DNA from: a virus
Direction: 5' to 3' (one strand)
IMG/VR virus record: IMGVR_UViG_3300033149_006413
Span: 1 to 43,819 of that record
Length of the DNA stretch: 43,819 nucleotides
Each line of letters opens with the position of its first letter. Position 1 is the stretch's first letter. Shown here in pieces: positions 8,840-31,071 of the stretch. Below the pieces are notes generated by a model that did not search any database, had not been told where the DNA came from, and worked only from the letters and a program-made list of their open reading frames with translations. The position numbers and the translations under genes were made by a program.

Positions 8840-8886
8840 GAATTAATTAATAACTAATTAATTATTCATTAGTTATTAACTAATTC
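8840..8886 (+). repeat. 47-bp AT-rich oriented palindrome, copy 1
   Basis: The left arm is GAATTAATTAATAACTAAT and the right arm is the complement of GAATTAGTTAATAACTAAT. The A/G difference between arms gives the element a direction. It lies between convergent genes (tail tip stop at 8826; minus gene stop at 8876-8878, inside the element). Flank GGGTA on the left is shared with copy 2 and close to GGGTTA of copy 3. Possible roles are operator, bidirectional terminator or recombination site. Confidence 0.9.
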
Positions 8887-17763: not shown

Positions 17764-17785
17764 GCTCATAGTATATAAAGGTAAC
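17764..17785 (-). promoter_or_regulatory. early-type BRE/TATA promoter, copy A
   Basis: On the minus strand the sequence reads GTTACCTTTATATACTATG then AGC, a BRE plus TATA box. It is 39 bp before the start of 17488-17736 and overlaps nothing but intergenic DNA. Nearly the same 22 bp occurs at 24935 and 30450, including the CTATGAG downstream of the box. Confidence 0.8.
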
Positions 17786-22247: not shown

Positions 22248-22348
22248 GCCGACCACCTCTCCCCGCATATATTACACACGAACTCTCTCATCGTGCCGAA
22301 CGTGGGTAGCTCGGTTATGTTGCTACATCTACAGTGCGGACACGTCAC
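22244..22348 (-). CDS. 34-residue zinc ribbon
   Basis: From GTG 22348 the product reads MTCPHCRCSNITEL, then CNICGERWSA, a minimal two-CxxC ribbon. It overlaps the VWA gene stop by 20 nt and the methyltransferase start by 4 nt. The tight packing supports it, though its size keeps confidence moderate. Confidence 0.5.
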   Translation of the reverse strand: MTCPHCRCSNITELPTFGTMREFVCNICGERWSA

Positions 22349-23930
22349 GGAAGACCCTCCTGATGATGTACTTGTGCAGCTCCCCGATGTCACACCGGGT
22401 GTAGTTCTCCGAGTTTTGCAGGAACTCGTACGCCTTCCCGCTCTTGCTTATATCGATGAGGTGATACGCGATACCCCGCATCGAGCAGTAGTACGCCATG
22501 CGCTCGTACCGCGACTCGCTATCGTACCTCACCGCGTCGAAGATGTCGGGCGCAATCTCGTTATCGTGGAACAGCGAACGCGTCAGCCCGAGCATCGCCT
22601 CGTTATCCGCACCGTCGGTGACAGCGATGAGCAGGTCACCCGGTCGCGCGTGCTCGGAGCGTGCGAGTACGAGCATGGAATCGAAGAGTGGCGTGTAGCC
22701 GAAGAATCTGATACCCCGGAGCACGTTCTTGACGAGCGAGATATCGCGCATGCCGAACGTGTCACAGAGTGGTGGCGCTATCTGCGCGAATGTGGAGACG
22801 GAGAACCGGAGCTCGGCCCTGTGCAAGGCTACCGCGATGGTGAGGAACGCGATGTGGGACCGACGGTCGTCCATCGAGGCGGAGGTATCGAACAGGAGCA
22901 GGACCCTGCCGTTGAACCCGCTCTTTTTCGCCCTGTTATAGATATCGGTGGGTATGTCGAAATGCTTCCGCTCGATGTATCGCTCGATATCTATCTCGAC
23001 CCCTGCGGGGGTCTGCTCATCGCGCCTGCTCATCCTGTTCCGGAGCTGGAGTAGCTCGTCCGCAATCCTGTTCACCGCGTTCATATCCTCTTTCAGCCCG
23101 CTGTCGTAAATATCCCCGTTCGAGTCCACGGCGAACTGTAGCTTCATGCTCGCCTCCGCGAGTTCCTCCACTTCCTTCAACTCCTTCTCGCCGACGTGCA
23201 ACTTCTCCGCCTCGACGAGCTCGTTCACGGGGTTGAGCCCGTCGTTGTAGTTCGCTATCTGCGTGAACGTGTACTTCCCGAGGAACATACGCGTCGCCAT
23301 GCGCGCGAACTCGGGGTCCCTCACGTCGAGCTTCTTCAGCTCATCCCCGAGCTCGGTATCGGTGCCGGGTAACGCGACACCGGTGAGCATGTAATACACG
23401 ATAGGTAGGAGCACGGTGAGCAGGTCTGTCGGCCCGTGCTCGCGCGGTGCCCCGCAGAAGGCTTGCGTATCATCGAGTGACTTGACCGCGGTGTCCCACA
23501 TATCCCTGACGAGCTCCCTCATCCCGCGGTACGTCTCCGTGCCGAGCAGGTCAACGCGGTAGTCCTCGAACATGTTCGTGGTGAACATCACGATGTTCGT
23601 CCTCACCTGACTGTACTCCGTCACTACATTGATAGGCTTTAGCTCCGTCATCACGACGTGCATGCACTCGTGCCATAGCGCATACTTCAGCTTTCGCCAC
23701 GCACGCGCGTGTGCCTCCGGCGTGTTCTTCGCCCCGAATGTAGTCATGTAATACGGTATGAAAATTATCTCACGATACGTATCGGTGCGAGGCGTGCTCG
23801 AGCTCACTTCCAGCCGTAGCTCTCTCACCTTCCCGCCCGTCCACAGCTCGGACAGCACGTCGAGCTTGCGCCTGACCAGTATAGTGTGTCTCCTGAATGC
23901 CGTATCATATAAGCGAATCGACATACTCAT
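22329..23930 (-). CDS. VWA-domain protein with N-terminal HExxH metallopeptidase-like domain
   Basis: The protein has 533 residues. Residues 86-92 contain HECMHVV, an HExxH zinc motif within a helical domain. Residues 345-500 form a von Willebrand A domain with MIDAS DTSASMD (347-353), the Thr of GYTPLFDS and TDGADNE. This domain order matches the DUF2201-type VWA proteins (putative metallopeptidase plus VWA) that act with MoxR AAA+ ATPases to remodel or activate targets. The MoxR partner overlaps it by 26 nt. All MIDAS residues are intact. The role in the virus is unknown. Confidence 0.8.
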   Translation of the reverse strand: MSMSIRLYDTAFRRHTILVRRKLDVLSELWTGGKVRELRLEVSSSTPRTDTYREIIFIPYYMTTFGAKNTPEAHARAWRKLKYALWHECMHVVMTELKPINVVTEYSQVRTNIVMFTTNMFEDYRVDLLGTETYRGMRELVRDMWDTAVKSLDDTQAFCGAPREHGPTDLLTVLLPIVYYMLTGVALPGTDTELGDELKKLDVRDPEFARMATRMFLGKYTFTQIANYNDGLNPVNELVEAEKLHVGEKELKEVEELAEASMKLQFAVDSNGDIYDSGLKEDMNAVNRIADELLQLRNRMSRRDEQTPAGVEIDIERYIERKHFDIPTDIYNRAKKSGFNGRVLLLFDTSASMDDRRSHIAFLTIAVALHRAELRFSVSTFAQIAPPLCDTFGMRDISLVKNVLRGIRFFGYTPLFDSMLVLARSEHARPGDLLIAVTDGADNEAMLGLTRSLFHDNEIAPDIFDAVRYDSESRYERMAYYCSMRGIAYHLIDISKSGKAYEFLQNSENYTRCDIGELHKYIIRRVFRDVSAL

Positions 23931-24885
23931 CTACCCCATCCTTTATCTCGTTCCCCCACTGCGAGTACACGTCTATCACCGTGTATTTCAGCGCCTGCCT
24001 CAACTCCATCCCGCCCACTATGAGCGAGCACACGGCGACTGACTCGCGTATCGACGGGCGGTAGGGCAGGTACTCCGTCTTGGACTTGCGCACGCCCCTG
24101 ACGACCTTCACCGCTTTCGCGCAGTCCGCTTTGTGTGCTGGCGGAATATCGAGCACGCTCTCGACGAGTAGTATCTCTTCCTCCAGCGACGACGGGTAAT
24201 CGACGTACACGCGTATGGCGAACCTGCTCAGTATCGCGGTGGGTAGCTGTCGCGTCCCGATGTGGTCGAGTGAATTGAGTGTCGCGACGGGCCACCAGCC
24301 CTCTTTCGCCTTGACGACGCCGTTGTGTAGGGTGAGCTCGCGCCGTGCGTCGAGTGCCTCGTCGAGCCGGAGTATCACCCCGTCATCGGCGGTCGTCAGC
24401 TCGTCGAAGCATGTGATACCGCCCTGTTTCATGGAGCGTGTGAGCAGCCCGTCCTCCCACTCGATATGCCCGTCAGCCTGCTCGACATACTTGCCCACGA
24501 TGTGGTGCTCGCGTATGCCGGCGGAGCACGGTATGTTCGTGAACGGTATGTTGTGTATGCGTGCGAATGCGGTGACCGCGAGGGTCTTGCCGCAGCCGTG
24601 CGGGCCTATGAGGAGCGTAGGTATCTTCAGCTCGTAATACCGTTCGAGCATGGGTATGAGCTTGTTATAGTCGTAGTACTCGCCGTAGCTCCGCACCTGC
24701 TCCTCCTCGTTCTCGACGTTCTTCCCCGTGTACAGGAACTTGTTCCCCATCTTCATCACGAGGCCCGTTTTCACGTAGGACTCCATCTCGGCGTACACCT
24801 CTACGATGTCGCCTCCCTCGCCACATGCGCGGAATAGCTCGCTCGCCGTGGCTTCGCCTAATTCTTTCAATTTTTCAAAATACAT
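23905..24885 (-). CDS. MoxR-type AAA+ ATPase with N-terminal winged helix
   Basis: The protein has 326 residues from ATG 24885, 8 nt after GGAGTGA (an upstream GTG at 24894 is also possible). Residues 1-55 resemble a winged helix (GEATASELFRACGEGG). Walker A is GPHGCGKT (94-101), Walker B GGITCFDE (155-162), sensor 1 VATLNS and arginine finger LSRFA. Together with the adjacent VWA protein it should form a chaperone-like remodelling pair. It is the first gene of its operon, 50 bp after promoter copy B. Confidence 0.85.
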   Translation of the reverse strand: MYFEKLKELGEATASELFRACGEGGDIVEVYAEMESYVKTGLVMKMGNKFLYTGKNVENEEEQVRSYGEYYDYNKLIPMLERYYELKIPTLLIGPHGCGKTLAVTAFARIHNIPFTNIPCSAGIREHHIVGKYVEQADGHIEWEDGLLTRSMKQGGITCFDELTTADDGVILRLDEALDARRELTLHNGVVKAKEGWWPVATLNSLDHIGTRQLPTAILSRFAIRVYVDYPSSLEEEILLVESVLDIPPAHKADCAKAVKVVRGVRKSKTEYLPYRPSIRESVAVCSLIVGGMELRQALKYTVIDVYSQWGNEIKDGVDEYVDSLI

Positions 24886-24934
24886 ATACTTCACTCCGTT
24901 GTGATAGTAGCAATACTTGCATAGAGAATTTAGT

Positions 24935-24956
24935 GCTCATAGTATATAAAGGTTAC
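24935..24956 (-). promoter_or_regulatory. early-type BRE/TATA promoter, copy B
   Basis: The minus strand reads GTAACCTTTATATACTATG then AGC. It matches copy A in 21 of 22 positions and drives the MoxR/VWA/replication operon. The surrounding 24886-24996 gap contains nothing else recognisable apart from an A/T-rich stretch at 24900-24934. Confidence 0.8.
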
Positions 24957-24996: not shown

Positions 24997-25176
24997 TCAC
25001 TTCCCACGGTACACACGTATTGTGAAAAGAGCCACTGCGAAGGCGACCTCCCGCTTGTTCTTGAGGAGCCTGCACAGTGACTCGAGTTCCGCCTCGAAAT
25101 TCATACCCGGGTAGATATGAATCTCGTGCACGAGTGTAGCTATCTGTTGCCTGCGCTTCTCATCCAGCTTGAGCAT
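24997..25176 (-). CDS. small helical hypothetical protein
   Basis: The protein has 59 residues from ATG 25176, after GAGGTTGA and overlapping the upstream stop by 17 nt. It is basic and helical (KRRQQIATLVHEIHIY; LCRLLKNKREVAFAVALF). Not recognised. Confidence 0.5.
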   Translation of the reverse strand: MLKLDEKRRQQIATLVHEIHIYPGMNFEAELESLCRLLKNKREVAFAVALFTIRVYRGK

Positions 25177-25642
25177 TCGGTTCAACCTCGACAAAGAGCA
25201 TTGGAAGTAGATACCACACGCCCAATTTAAACTCTTCGTCGTTCTCGACGCATTGCAGCAGGGTCTTTACAATCTCTGCCGTCCTCACGGTCTCCGTGAT
25301 GTCGCCCGACACACGCTTTCTCACGCGTTCGAGAATACGCTTCGATATCTGCTCGACCTCGTTCCCCGTCATCGACTTGTCGGGTACGATAGGTCTCGGA
25401 TTGTGCAGGGCGAGGATGGTCGCTGCGAACGCTTCCTCTTCCCGGGTGTACCCATCGAATGCGGAGATGTCGCCGAAGAGGTACAAGTCTGCCTTGTGTT
25501 CGTTCATATCCGCTATTACCTCCTCCGCCCTCTCATGTGTGAGGCCGAAGTGTACGGAGAGTAGTTCGTCTCCCGTGCTGTCTTTTTTCATACGGACCTG
25601 CATAGGCCCGACCTTTTCATATCCTTTCGTCATATCATTCAC
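25160..25642 (-). CDS. small early-family protein 1 (FGLTxER family)
   Basis: This 160-residue, helical, acidic protein carries FGLTHERAEEV near residue 32 and ends with a helix pair LLQCVENDEEFKLGVWYLL. The same two-part pattern recurs in four nearby genes, so it belongs to a local paralogous family. The start is GTG 25642 or ATG 25633; GGGGAGGAG precedes both. The leader holds two GC hairpins. Function unknown. Confidence 0.6.
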   Translation of the reverse strand: MNDMTKGYEKVGPMQVRMKKDSTGDELLSVHFGLTHERAEEVIADMNEHKADLYLFGDISAFDGYTREEEAFAATILALHNPRPIVPDKSMTGNEVEQISKRILERVRKRVSGDITETVRTAEIVKTLLQCVENDEEFKLGVWYLLPMLFVEVEPNAQAG

Positions 25643-25712: not shown

Positions 25713-25728
25713 ATGTATATATTAGTTA
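25713..25728 (-). promoter_or_regulatory. TATA box overlapping palindrome half-site
   Basis: The minus strand reads TAACTAATATATACAT. TATATA is a likely promoter for the 25160-25642 gene, and TAACTAAT is 8 bp of the 12-bp half-site TTAATAACTAAT found in the 47-bp palindromes. A protein that binds the palindrome could block TBP here. Confidence 0.5.
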
Positions 25729-26010
25729 CCCGCCGAACAGGGAGGACGTCAGATGTATCCTCTCCATGATGTGGGGGAAGATGCAGACGGCGCAGTAGTG
25801 CGCCTCCCGCTCATCTTTCGGCACCTTCGACATGACGGTGACGAAGATGTCGGTCAGGCTAACCATCTCTTCATCCTCGCCGCCTGTCAGCTCGTCCAGG
25901 AACTCCTCGGACTTGATGTACTCGTCTATCTCCGCCGAGCGCTCCTCCGGTATCCCGAACACCACGTCGAGCATGTCGGCGTCGTGGTCGAGCTCGAATG
26001 GTAGTTTCAT
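25726..26010 (-). CDS. small early-family protein 2
   Basis: The protein has 94 residues from ATG 26010, with GGAGGTATCTC upstream. FGIPEERSAEI (around residue 17) and a C-terminal helix (REAHYCAVCIFPHIMERIHL) align with the FGLTxER family of this region. It is acidic throughout. Function unknown. Confidence 0.6.
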   Translation of the reverse strand: MKLPFELDHDADMLDVVFGIPEERSAEIDEYIKSEEFLDELTGGEDEEMVSLTDIFVTVMSKVPKDEREAHYCAVCIFPHIMERIHLTSSLFGG

Positions 26011-26267
26011 GCGAGATACCTCCATCCGCCGCATATCAGAGCGCCGAGCTCCTGTTTGTTCCCCGCTACCTCGACGAGAAGTTCGTACTTCTGCGAGCGG
26101 CTGCACGCCTCGTCGCCGTACCTCTCGTGCTGTAGCCTGGAGACCTCTGCCATGAGGGCCTCCAGCCGTTCCCTCGATGTGTCGAAGGCCTCGGACAGCG
26201 TCTCCGTGCCCAACAGCACATCGAAACCGAGTGGGCTCACGCCCACACATTTCTTTCCTTTCTCCAT
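26007..26267 (-). CDS. small early-family protein 3
   Basis: The protein has 86 residues from ATG 26267, after GGAGGAATAAG. FDTSRERLEALMAEV followed by LLVEVAGNKQELGALICGG fits the family pattern: an ER-x-x-E-[LIV] helix, then a (D/N)-x-QEL helix. It overlaps the next gene by 4 nt. This is the most divergent of the five members. Confidence 0.55.
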   Translation of the reverse strand: MEKGKKCVGVSPLGFDVLLGTETLSEAFDTSRERLEALMAEVSRLQHERYGDEACSRSQKYELLVEVAGNKQELGALICGGWRYLA

Positions 26268-26281
26268 GCTTATTCCTCCAA

Positions 26282-26401
26282 TCACTCCCACGCCTTGCGC
26301 CCACAACGGGTGCAGATGGCTGGGAATGAAGCGTTACGCATACCGCACCTCGTGCATTTCCACATGGGTGCGAAATAGTCGATGGGGTGCTTACTCTGCA
26401 C
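26282..26401 (-). CDS. 39-residue zinc ribbon
   Basis: GTG 26401 starts a product with MWKCTRCGMR and AICTRCGRKAWE, two CxxC pairs about 14 residues apart. It overlaps the upstream stop by 11 nt. The Cys spacing is regular and the stop is close to the next RBS. Confidence 0.55.
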   Translation of the reverse strand: MQSKHPIDYFAPMWKCTRCGMRNASFPAICTRCGRKAWE

Positions 26402-27503: not shown

Positions 27504-27680
27504 TCACATCACCTCTTCGAAGAACCCGGAGTGGCGAAGTGCCCGATAGGCCGCACGTCCGGGGGTCAGTCCTTCCTCGAACCAGTCACGATAGGGCTGG
27601 TCGGGGAGGTCGTCGCTCACAATGCCGATGTTCCTGTCGAGAGTGTTATCTAACTCCCGCATCCATTCTTCAAATTCCAT
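27504..27680 (-). CDS. small acidic phage-type protein (DLPD motif)
   Basis: The protein has 58 residues from ATG 27680, with GGAGGTGAGTAA upstream. SDDLPDQPYRDWFEEGLTP followed by an Ala-rich helix resembles a class of small phage proteins with DLPD and aromatic-acidic helices. Its leader and first codons (ATGGAATTTG) match those of the gene at 28393-28659. Confidence 0.6.
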   Translation of the reverse strand: MEFEEWMRELDNTLDRNIGIVSDDLPDQPYRDWFEEGLTPGRAAYRALRHSGFFEEVM

Positions 27681-27694
27681 TTACTCACCTCCAT

Positions 27695-27760: not shown

Positions 27761-27807
27761 GAATTAGTTAATAACTAACTAATGATTAATTAGTTATTAA
27801 TTAATTC
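27761..27807 (-). repeat. 47-bp AT-rich oriented palindrome, copy 2 (inverted)
   Basis: Read on the minus strand it has the same arms as copies 1 and 3 (GAATTAATTAATAACTAAT left, complement of GAATTAGTTAATAAC right) and the same GGGTA left flank. The centre differs over about 10 bp. It follows directly on the stop of the Csx16-like gene. Confidence 0.9.
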
Positions 27808-28097
27808 TACCCTACCTTACGCACTTCATAGCGTGTGAGCTTGCAGCCGAAGCGCTCCAGCTCCTCGGCTGTCAGCTCTGCACCACGTTTCTCCCTCGGC
27901 ACTGACATCTCGAGATGCCAGTACTCGGCGCACTCCGCTGCGAGCTGCACGGGCAGGATACCGACGACTCTCTTCCCTCGCACGAGCTCGGGCGTTGCGT
28001 GAGTGATGACCCGCGCCTCCCCGAACTCGGGATGGTGCTTGTTGAGCCACTGCAGGGCCCCGACGTGTCTCGTCACAATCACCGTCTCCACGCTCAT
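27807..28097 (-). CDS. csx16: Csx16-like protein (type III CRISPR-associated family), putative anti-CRISPR
   Basis: The 96-residue protein matches the Csx16/VVA1548 family in order and spacing: VIVTRHVGALQWLNKH at the N-terminus, VITHATPELVRGKRVVGILPVQLAA in the centre, and EYWHLEMSVPREKRG then AELTAEEL at the C-terminus. The family occurs next to type III CRISPR loci and has been proposed to act on cyclic oligoadenylate messengers. No cas genes or CRISPR array are present here, so a virus-borne copy would most simply dampen host type III signalling. It overlaps the upstream family-member gene by 4 nt. Confidence 0.8.
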   Translation of the reverse strand: MSVETVIVTRHVGALQWLNKHHPEFGEARVITHATPELVRGKRVVGILPVQLAAECAEYWHLEMSVPREKRGAELTAEELERFGCKLTRYEVRKVG

Positions 28098-28396
28098 ATC
28101 ATCCCTCCCATTATCGATTTGAAGGAGGCGAACCCGGTCGTTAGACCGAGTATCAATTCCTGTTCGTTCCGGCAGGTCTCGATTATCACCTCGACGACTC
28201 TGCCGGCGTCCATCATGCCCTTCATCTCCGCCTCGGTGAGCACTTTCATCCCGAGCTCACTGGCGAGCTCGTTCACCCGCTCCTCCGTCAGCCCGAGGTC
28301 CTCGTAGAGAGCGCTCTCGGCGTGCTTCTTCGTGTCGAACCCGTGGAGGACGAACTTGTGCCCCCCGAACTCCTTCTCCACCTTCTCGTACTTCAT
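28094..28396 (-). CDS. small early-family protein 4
   Basis: The protein has 100 residues from ATG 28396, with GGAGGTGAAGG upstream. LGLTEERVNELASEL and VIIETCRNEQELILGLTTG show the family pattern most clearly. It is directly upstream of, and coupled to, the Csx16-like gene, so an anti-defence or early host-takeover role is possible by association only. Confidence 0.6.
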   Translation of the reverse strand: MKYEKVEKEFGGHKFVLHGFDTKKHAESALYEDLGLTEERVNELASELGMKVLTEAEMKGMMDAGRVVEVIIETCRNEQELILGLTTGFASFKSIMGGMI

Positions 28397-28659
28397 CCCT
28401 TCACCTCCTTCCCGAGCATGATGAATGCCGTGACGCACACGGTGAGCAGCCATGCGAGCTCCTGCTGGTCCTCTGCGACTTCGAGGGCGACCCGAAGTGC
28501 GTCCGCCGTCGTCATGTGTTCTCTCTTCTCCAGCCCGGTCACGAAGCCGGTCTGGAGTTCCTCCATGCGCTCATCGGTGATGCCGAACATCTCCGAGAAC
28601 GACTCGTTGGGGGTCTCGTAGAGCATGATACCCCCGGCATTTTCCTTTCCAAATTCCAT
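28393..28659 (-). CDS. small early-family protein 5
   Basis: The protein has 88 residues. FGITDERMEELQTGF and LRVALEVAEDQQELAWLL match family member 4. Its end overlaps the next start by 4 nt, so members 5 and 4 and the Csx16-like gene form a coupled trio. Confidence 0.6.
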   Translation of the reverse strand: MEFGKENAGGIMLYETPNESFSEMFGITDERMEELQTGFVTGLEKREHMTTADALRVALEVAEDQQELAWLLTVCVTAFIMLGKEVKG

Positions 28660-28672
28660 TTACTTACCTCCT

Positions 28673-28747: not shown

Positions 28748-28942
28748 TCACTTCAGGAGCTGTGCGGCGCACCTGCGAATATCGATGCGCAGTGCTCCCA
28801 TCTTGGCGAGTTTCTCGATTACGACGGGGTCGTTGAGGCACTCCATCGTGTTCATGCGGTAGACACTCCTCGCCTGTTTGTATCTCTCGTGGGAGAGTAG
28901 GAGATTTTTCAACTTCTCTTCCGCCCCGTCCACGACACTCAT
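28748..28942 (-). CDS. small helical hypothetical protein
   Basis: The protein has 64 residues from ATG 28942, overlapping the upstream stop by 4 nt. It is helical and basic (EEKLKNLLLSHERYKQARSV; MGALRIDIRRCAAQLLK). Not recognised. Confidence 0.5.
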   Translation of the reverse strand: MSVVDGAEEKLKNLLLSHERYKQARSVYRMNTMECLNDPVVIEKLAKMGALRIDIRRCAAQLLK

Positions 28943-29280
28943 TCCCACACCTCGACGACTTTATTCTCCGTATCGAGGGCCACGTGCTGGCCCTCGTGTC
29001 CCCTGCGCCGGCAACAGATGAAGGGTAGGTCGTCCGGCTTCGTCTCCCGGCAGGCCCTGTAGTAGGAATCGGGGAACACCTCCCCCTCCTCCACCCGCAT
29101 CCCCGGCTCGTACCACACATCGACAATCTTATCCTCGTCTGTCACGGCGACGTGCGCTCCCTCGTGCCCCGCCCTGCGACAGCAGAGGTAGCCGGAGTGC
29201 CTCGCCGTGCACGTCTCACTCGCCTTCTCCGGGAACTCGGGGTCCCCGGGCTCTACATACTTTCCCGTTTCGTATTCCAT
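28939..29280 (-). CDS. tandem Cys/His-module protein
   Basis: The 113-residue protein contains two copies of a module of about 35 residues. Each has a Cys, then CCRRxGHEGxHVA, then a strand K-[IV]-V-[DE]-VW. The Cys and His residues (C-x(n)-CC...H...H) suggest one zinc site per copy. Start ATG 29280 follows GAGGTGAAC and a GC hairpin. Function unknown; metal binding is inferred. Confidence 0.6.
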   Translation of the reverse strand: MEYETGKYVEPGDPEFPEKASETCTARHSGYLCCRRAGHEGAHVAVTDEDKIVDVWYEPGMRVEEGEVFPDSYYRACRETKPDDLPFICCRRRGHEGQHVALDTENKVVEVWE

Positions 29281-29296
29281 TTCGTTCACCTCGTAG

Positions 29297-29315
29297 CGCC
29301 CCGACGTGCGGGGCG
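29297..29315 (-). promoter_or_regulatory. leader hairpin before gene 28939-29280
   Basis: CGCCCCG/CGGGGCG form a perfect 7-bp stem with an ACGTG loop, ending 5-6 nt before the Shine-Dalgarno. Upstream (29316-29360) are two B-box-like strings on the minus strand, GGTTCAAGGCC and GGTTCGACCCC. Each lies in a short stem, but no complete tRNA is present. Confidence 0.6.
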
Positions 29316-29360
29316 TAGGGCTGTGCACCGGGGTCGAACCGGGCACCGGGCCTTGAACCC

Positions 29361-30449: not shown

Positions 30450-30471
30450 CCTCATGGTATATAAAGGTAAA
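30450..30471 (-). promoter_or_regulatory. early-type BRE/TATA promoter, copy C
   Basis: The minus strand reads TTTTACCTTTATATACCATG then AGG. It lies 57 bp before gene 30040-30399 and shares the ACCTTTATATAC-[CT]-ATGAG core with copies A and B. Confidence 0.8.
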
Positions 30472-31024: not shown

Positions 31025-31071
31025 GAATTAATTAATAACTAATGAATAATTAATTAGTTATTAACTAATTC
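31025..31071 (+). repeat. 47-bp AT-rich oriented palindrome, copy 3
   Basis: It has the same arms and direction as copy 1. Its central 19 bp (CTAATGAATAATTAATTAG) are the exact reverse complement of the centre of copy 1. It lies just upstream of the leaderless start of 31125 and downstream of a TATATATA string at 30982-30990. Confidence 0.9.

Follow-up and report, generated by a model that had tools for sequence, protein, structure and literature searches.

The window analysed here, DNA of an uncultured virus with a length of 43,819 nucleotides (IMG/VR record IMGVR_UViG_3300033149_006413, taken over its whole length), encodes on its minus strand (27807..28097) a 96-aa Csx16 protein (PF09652/TIGR02620) of a mobile-element-type short form, which we consider, with a probability of about 0.7, to be a virus-borne cA4 ring nuclease and type III anti-CRISPR belonging to a mobile-element subfamily. 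A published study counted 68 type III loci and 2 of 28,114 phage genomes with Csx16 and showed that a cellular Csx16 degrades cA4, while cA3 and cA6 are not degraded (PMC12409355). The original prediction for this locus referred to a proposed action on cyclic oligoadenylates; that action has since been demonstrated for a cellular Csx16 with cA4 (PMC12409355). The novelty which it implied for a viral copy is smaller, since the two phage genomes of the same publication mean that viral Csx16 is not new per se. These two are presumably Drs3 and PhiF3, cultured viruses of methanogens and the only matches to Csx16 in INPHARED. The breadth of Csx16 in viruses and the existence of a separate short form appear to be new against the literature searched.

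The csx16 open reading frame, for which the original prediction named no strand, runs from 28097 to 27807 on the minus strand; a stop codon interrupts this interval when it is read on the plus strand. Its product matches the Pfam model PF09652 Cas_VVA1548 (E=5.5e-22, 78.2 bits, cut-off 25) and the NCBIfam model TIGR02620 Csx16 (E=2e-15, 56.8 bits, cut-off 46.35) over the full length, and the PADLOC Csx16 model (E=1.1e-23) over nearly the full length. The segments TRHVGALQWL, GILPVQLAA, PREKRG and AELTAEEL occur in the order originally claimed, and the conserved residues of the family (T/S-R-H-x-G, H33, G-x-L-P and R-G-x-E-L) are all kept, at positions R10-H11, H33, G46-x-L48-P49 and R71-G72-x-E74-L75. 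The identification as Csx16 is thus upheld by the profile search that had been proposed for it and, judged from its sequence, the product of 27807-28097 is a full-length member of the family. No second Csx16 was found in the 43,819-base record, where the gene is present as a single copy.

The gene lies outside any CRISPR locus. Indeed, a whole-record profile search detected no type III RAMP gene in the window, nor did any CRISPR-like array with repeats at regular spacing turn up in it, which agrees with the absence of cas genes and CRISPR repeats noted earlier. Among the products of the record are a terminase, a portal (phrog_18178, E=4e-53), a capsid protein and a tape measure, as well as a tail tube, RecU and two N6/N4 methylases. 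The portal matches archaeal viruses only, namely the haloarchaeal HVTV-1/HCTV group, the Methanomassiliicoccales virus vir335 and the Methanofastidiosa virus vir519, and the capsid protein matches haloarchaeal viruses and vir519. Furthermore, the archaeal TATA-box-like sequence TTTATATA occurs exactly three times in the record, always on the minus strand and 36-59 bases before a leftward ORF: at 30458..30465, upstream of the leftward block holding csx16, and at the sister sites 24943-24950 and 17772-17779. This placement is as expected of archaeal promoters, and the sites are regarded as putative ones. Because of the virion genes, the archaeal-virus matches of portal and capsid and the placement of TTTATATA, the carrier of csx16 is, on sequence grounds, a tailed archaeal virus. 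An assignment of the host via the terminase was rejected, its matches being bacterial phages at 23-29%, whereas portal and capsid indicate archaeal viruses. The same virus encodes a MoxR-like AAA ATPase adjoining a VWA-like protein (22329-24894, minus strand), the latter having no match among phage records.

Three genes overlap by ATGA at each junction (28659-28393, 28396-28094 and 28097-27807), with csx16 in the final place, so that its coupling to two small genes, part of the original prediction, is confirmed, and neither neighbour belongs to a family. The first gene of the trio (28393..28659, minus strand, 88 aa) is preceded by a Shine-Dalgarno-like GGAGGTAAGTAA before its ATG; the second (28094..28396, minus strand, 100 aa), coupled directly to csx16, has only a marginal match to PADLOC CARF3 (E=0.008). 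Since the leftward block begins at a divergent region near 30.4-31.3 kb, csx16 probably belongs to a leftward operon expressed early. An AT-rich palindrome of about 47 bp (27761..27807) abuts the csx16 stop codon and is a probable boundary or regulatory element. Near-identical copies lie between transcription units at 8840-8886, 27761-27807 and 31025-31071; the arm GTTATTAACTAATTC has 7 matches against 0.04 expected, and the RNA of the palindromes folds with z of -4.5 to -6. The three palindromes are candidate terminators or, possibly, binding sites of a viral regulator.

Other small genes are found in the neighbourhood. Five minus-strand proteins (25160-25642, 25726-26019, 26007-26306, 28094-28396 and 28393-28659) appear weakly paralogous, share the pattern FGxTxERxEEL ... 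NxQE and may be early accessory proteins that arose by duplication within one family. A near-identical ribosome-binding/start region, GGAGGTRAGTAAATGGAATTTG, heads two different small genes (at 27671-27692 and 28650-28671), which suggests duplication of gene heads. In a 135-aa protein (28939-29346, minus strand), a repeat of the type C-C-R-R-x-G-H-E-G-x-H-V occurs twice and may be a metal-binding module.

Csx16 sequences were aligned, 34 from mobile elements, the window copy included, and 30 cellular, the latter mostly proteobacterial; 12 of the 30 came from unseeded profile searches and were counted as cellular irrespective of their cas neighbourhood. In this alignment the window protein lacks the 1+4-residue insertion (IxPGD, CARG) of the CRISPR-locus form, which is present in all 30 cellular copies. 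Both parts are absent in 32 of the 34 mobile-element copies, a share that is biased upward for viral copies because most seeds of the viral scans were themselves of the short form; the lack of short forms in the cellular set suffers less from this bias. The exceptions are PhiF3, with both insertions, and Drs3, with the 4-residue part. Most of the viral copies found thus form a short variant, which had gone unnoticed in the earlier note. Scores with the Pfam model were 113-140 bits for cellular copies (full-length, from the unseeded search) versus 22-78 bits for mobile copies. Several positions differ between the groups, among them 14, 59 and 61, where the window copy has A14, Y59 and H61 as the cellular form does.

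On the tree, the mobile/cellular label changes once, against 15-21 changes in shuffles, with or without the insert columns. Support is modest both for this split (77/99 with the insert columns and 67/0 without them; bootstraps 73% and 70%) and for the short-form grouping (82/71), with about 100 columns available. The window copy forms a clade (98/96) with those of plasmid P-10H_0, of IMG/VR 3300033149_003399 and of a 5.6-kb contig of a Lokiarchaeota MAG; this contig has no recognisable cas genes and was, by our own reading, counted as mobile. The best reading of these data is that mobile-element Csx16 would be a distinct short subfamily set apart from the CRISPR-locus form, with modest clade support. 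Of 227 genomes from the phylum to which the Lokiarchaeota MAG belongs, this MAG alone has the gene and, therefore, no host reservoir was found in that phylum. Literature searches returned no published paper on plasmid P-10H_0.

Seeded scans of IMG/VR also detected Csx16 in no fewer than 29 contigs besides the window (duplicates removed by contig name). These scans used small seed alignments, a 10-sequence alignment being too diverse to search with, and viral contigs scanned with the window Csx16 or the portal as a single query gave no matches. Thirteen of 28 virus records, the window included, match one terminase family, and several other terminases were seen in the flanks (PHROG scans). In a whole-record search, type III RAMP genes were found in none of 34 mobile-element records (28 from IMG/VR, including the window, two methanogen viruses and four plasmids), while four control genomes were positive. 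Around the first eight loci, the flanking ORFs encode methylases and a few other non-Cas families only, among 25 of 28 PADLOC families listed; the flanks of cellular csx16 copies are rich in Cas10, Csm3, Cmr4 and Csx1 in an overall tally across loci. One close pair of viral Csx16 genes has a dN/dS of 0.15, indicating purifying selection.

Stand-alone csx16 genes are also encoded on plasmids of Deinococcus, Allomeiothermus and Paenibacillus, and plasmid copies with cas or csm genes nearby occur in Allochromatium, Photobacterium and Aeromonas. On the Allomeiothermus plasmid pMESIL02 (L008, 5998-8013), which carries conjugation genes, the Csx16 domain is N-terminal in a 671-aa fusion. A diverged branch comprises the copies of Paenibacillus plasmid pSC2 and of a 155-kb virus contig (L010 and L016); the near-invariant R-G motif is lost there, GDLSG standing in its place, and these sequences possibly encode inactive or binding-only proteins.

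Structure prediction, which had been proposed as a check, yielded a confident fold for the window Csx16 (AlphaFold pLDDT 96.5, pTM 0.85) with alternating strands and helices. This predicted alpha/beta architecture would be compatible with the published description of Csx16 as Rossmann-like; no solved Csx16 was found for comparison. DSSP places T9-R10-H11 in the loop that leads from strand 5-8 to helix 12-21, H33 behind strand 29-31, G46-x-L48-P49 where strand 43-46 ends and R71-G72-x-E74 beyond strand 58-63; R10, H11, G46, P49, R71 and G72 hardly vary in either the mobile or the cellular group. Because each motif sits in a loop after a strand, the motifs should face the side on which CARF-like proteins hold their ligand, and this conserved face is, in the model, the predicted ligand site. 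Foldseek returned no significant match against PDB (best E 0.25; the cA4-bound CARF protein Cad1 ranked third with a non-significant E of 0.28) and none against BFVD.

By analogy with its cellular relative, the window protein probably cleaves cA4 and acts against type III CRISPR. In brief, during infection the host Cas10 complex would sense viral RNA and make cyclic tetra-adenylate (cA4); the small Rossmann-like Csx16, which is probably dimeric, would hold cA4 at the face where the conserved T-R-H, H33, G-x-L-P and R-G-x-E-L loops lie and cleave it into linear products; with cA4 removed, CARF effectors such as Csx1/Can/Cam1 would stay inactive. Viruses probably silence the type III alarm in this way, because relatives of the protein destroy cA4 and because stand-alone copies are present in dozens of viruses and plasmids. 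An anti-type III role fits this wide spread in elements that have no type III genes.

The 1+4-residue deletion, possibly near the substrate face, could alter specificity or leave a binder, and two other readings follow this line. The protein might bind a cyclic oligoadenylate, hardly cleave it and soak up the signal, as discussed for Csx15, which binds cA4 well and is slow as a nuclease (PMC13148439). The five residues missing from the short form would accord with such a sponge, which nevertheless seems unlikely: the window copy retains the residues that cellular members conserve, the authors of the Csx15 study judge sponging ill-suited to type III systems because much cOA is made, and Csx15 itself was not seen in phages (PMC13148439). 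Alternatively, the substrate could have shifted to cA3, cA6, a CBASS trinucleotide or another signal, the enzyme then countering other systems, as the consistency of the deletion in mobile copies and the inclusion of positions 14, 59 and 61 among those differing between the groups might suggest. We hold this to be quite improbable, given that the window copy has the cellular residues at these three positions and that the assayed cellular Csx16 is strictly cA4-specific (PMC12409355).

Host genes do get picked up by viruses, and csx16 could accordingly be a stray CRISPR accessory gene that is useless to its carrier. Against this stand the grouping of the window copy with mobile-element rather than cellular copies (98/96), the intact gene coupled by ATGA within a viral operon, the recurrence of Csx16 across many unrelated viruses and the purifying selection in a viral pair of relatives, which together make a mere passenger very unlikely. 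The idea of a small protein of unrelated origin with a mere likeness to Csx16 could appeal to the shortness of the sequence and to the lack of a significant solved-structure match in Foldseek, and its probability is negligible: it is refuted by the PF09652, TIGR02620 and PADLOC matches, and chance resemblance is excluded because the whole-length matches exceed the cut-offs, in Pfam with 78 bits against 25. A virus-borne cA4 ring nuclease is accordingly the reading preferred here. For the short lineage as a whole, the odds are about even that it evolved as the mobile elements' own dedicated anti-signalling enzyme in viruses and plasmids of archaea and bacteria alike, possibly faster or with other substrates than the CRISPR-locus form; it would then add one more family to the viral ring nucleases, next to AcrIII-1 and AcrIII-2.

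If the preferred reading is true, viral ring nucleases would be more common and diverse than the handful known, as the 29 further contigs from a few seeded IMG/VR scans would indicate against the 2 of 28,114 phage genomes on record (PMC12409355). The short form would also offer a contrast between a cellular off-switch and a viral weapon within one family, distinguished by a defined deletion.

In comparison with known systems, the window Csx16 resembles CRISPR-locus Csx16 (PF09652/TIGR02620) over the whole length of the family, with the T/S-R-H, H, G-x-L-P and R-G-x-E-L motifs common to both and about 31-44% identity to cellular copies, but it is viral, is unaccompanied by type III cas genes and is without the insertion. 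With Drs3 and PhiF3 it shares the situation of a stand-alone gene in a tailed archaeal virus, whereas its identity to their proteins is 33-37% and those two retain the 4-residue insertion and are not of the short form. Closer relatives, also of the short form and in records without type III RAMP genes, are the Csx16 of archaeal plasmid P-10H_0 (LC711081; 47% identical) and that of IMG/VR 3300033149_003399 (52% identical); in the stretches compared, the window proteins shared besides Csx16 are DNA methylases, on the plasmid only. AcrIII-1 (viral Crn2, DUF1874) has the same presumed job, viral removal of cA4 that blocks type III CRISPR, but is an unrelated sequence family; membership of the window protein in it was rejected, since a Pfam search relaxed to E up to 10 matched nothing but PF09652. 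AcrIII-2 (viral SAVED) and phage Crn4b are likewise virus-encoded enzymes that act, or are thought to act, on CRISPR signals, and they have other folds and belong to other families than Csx16.
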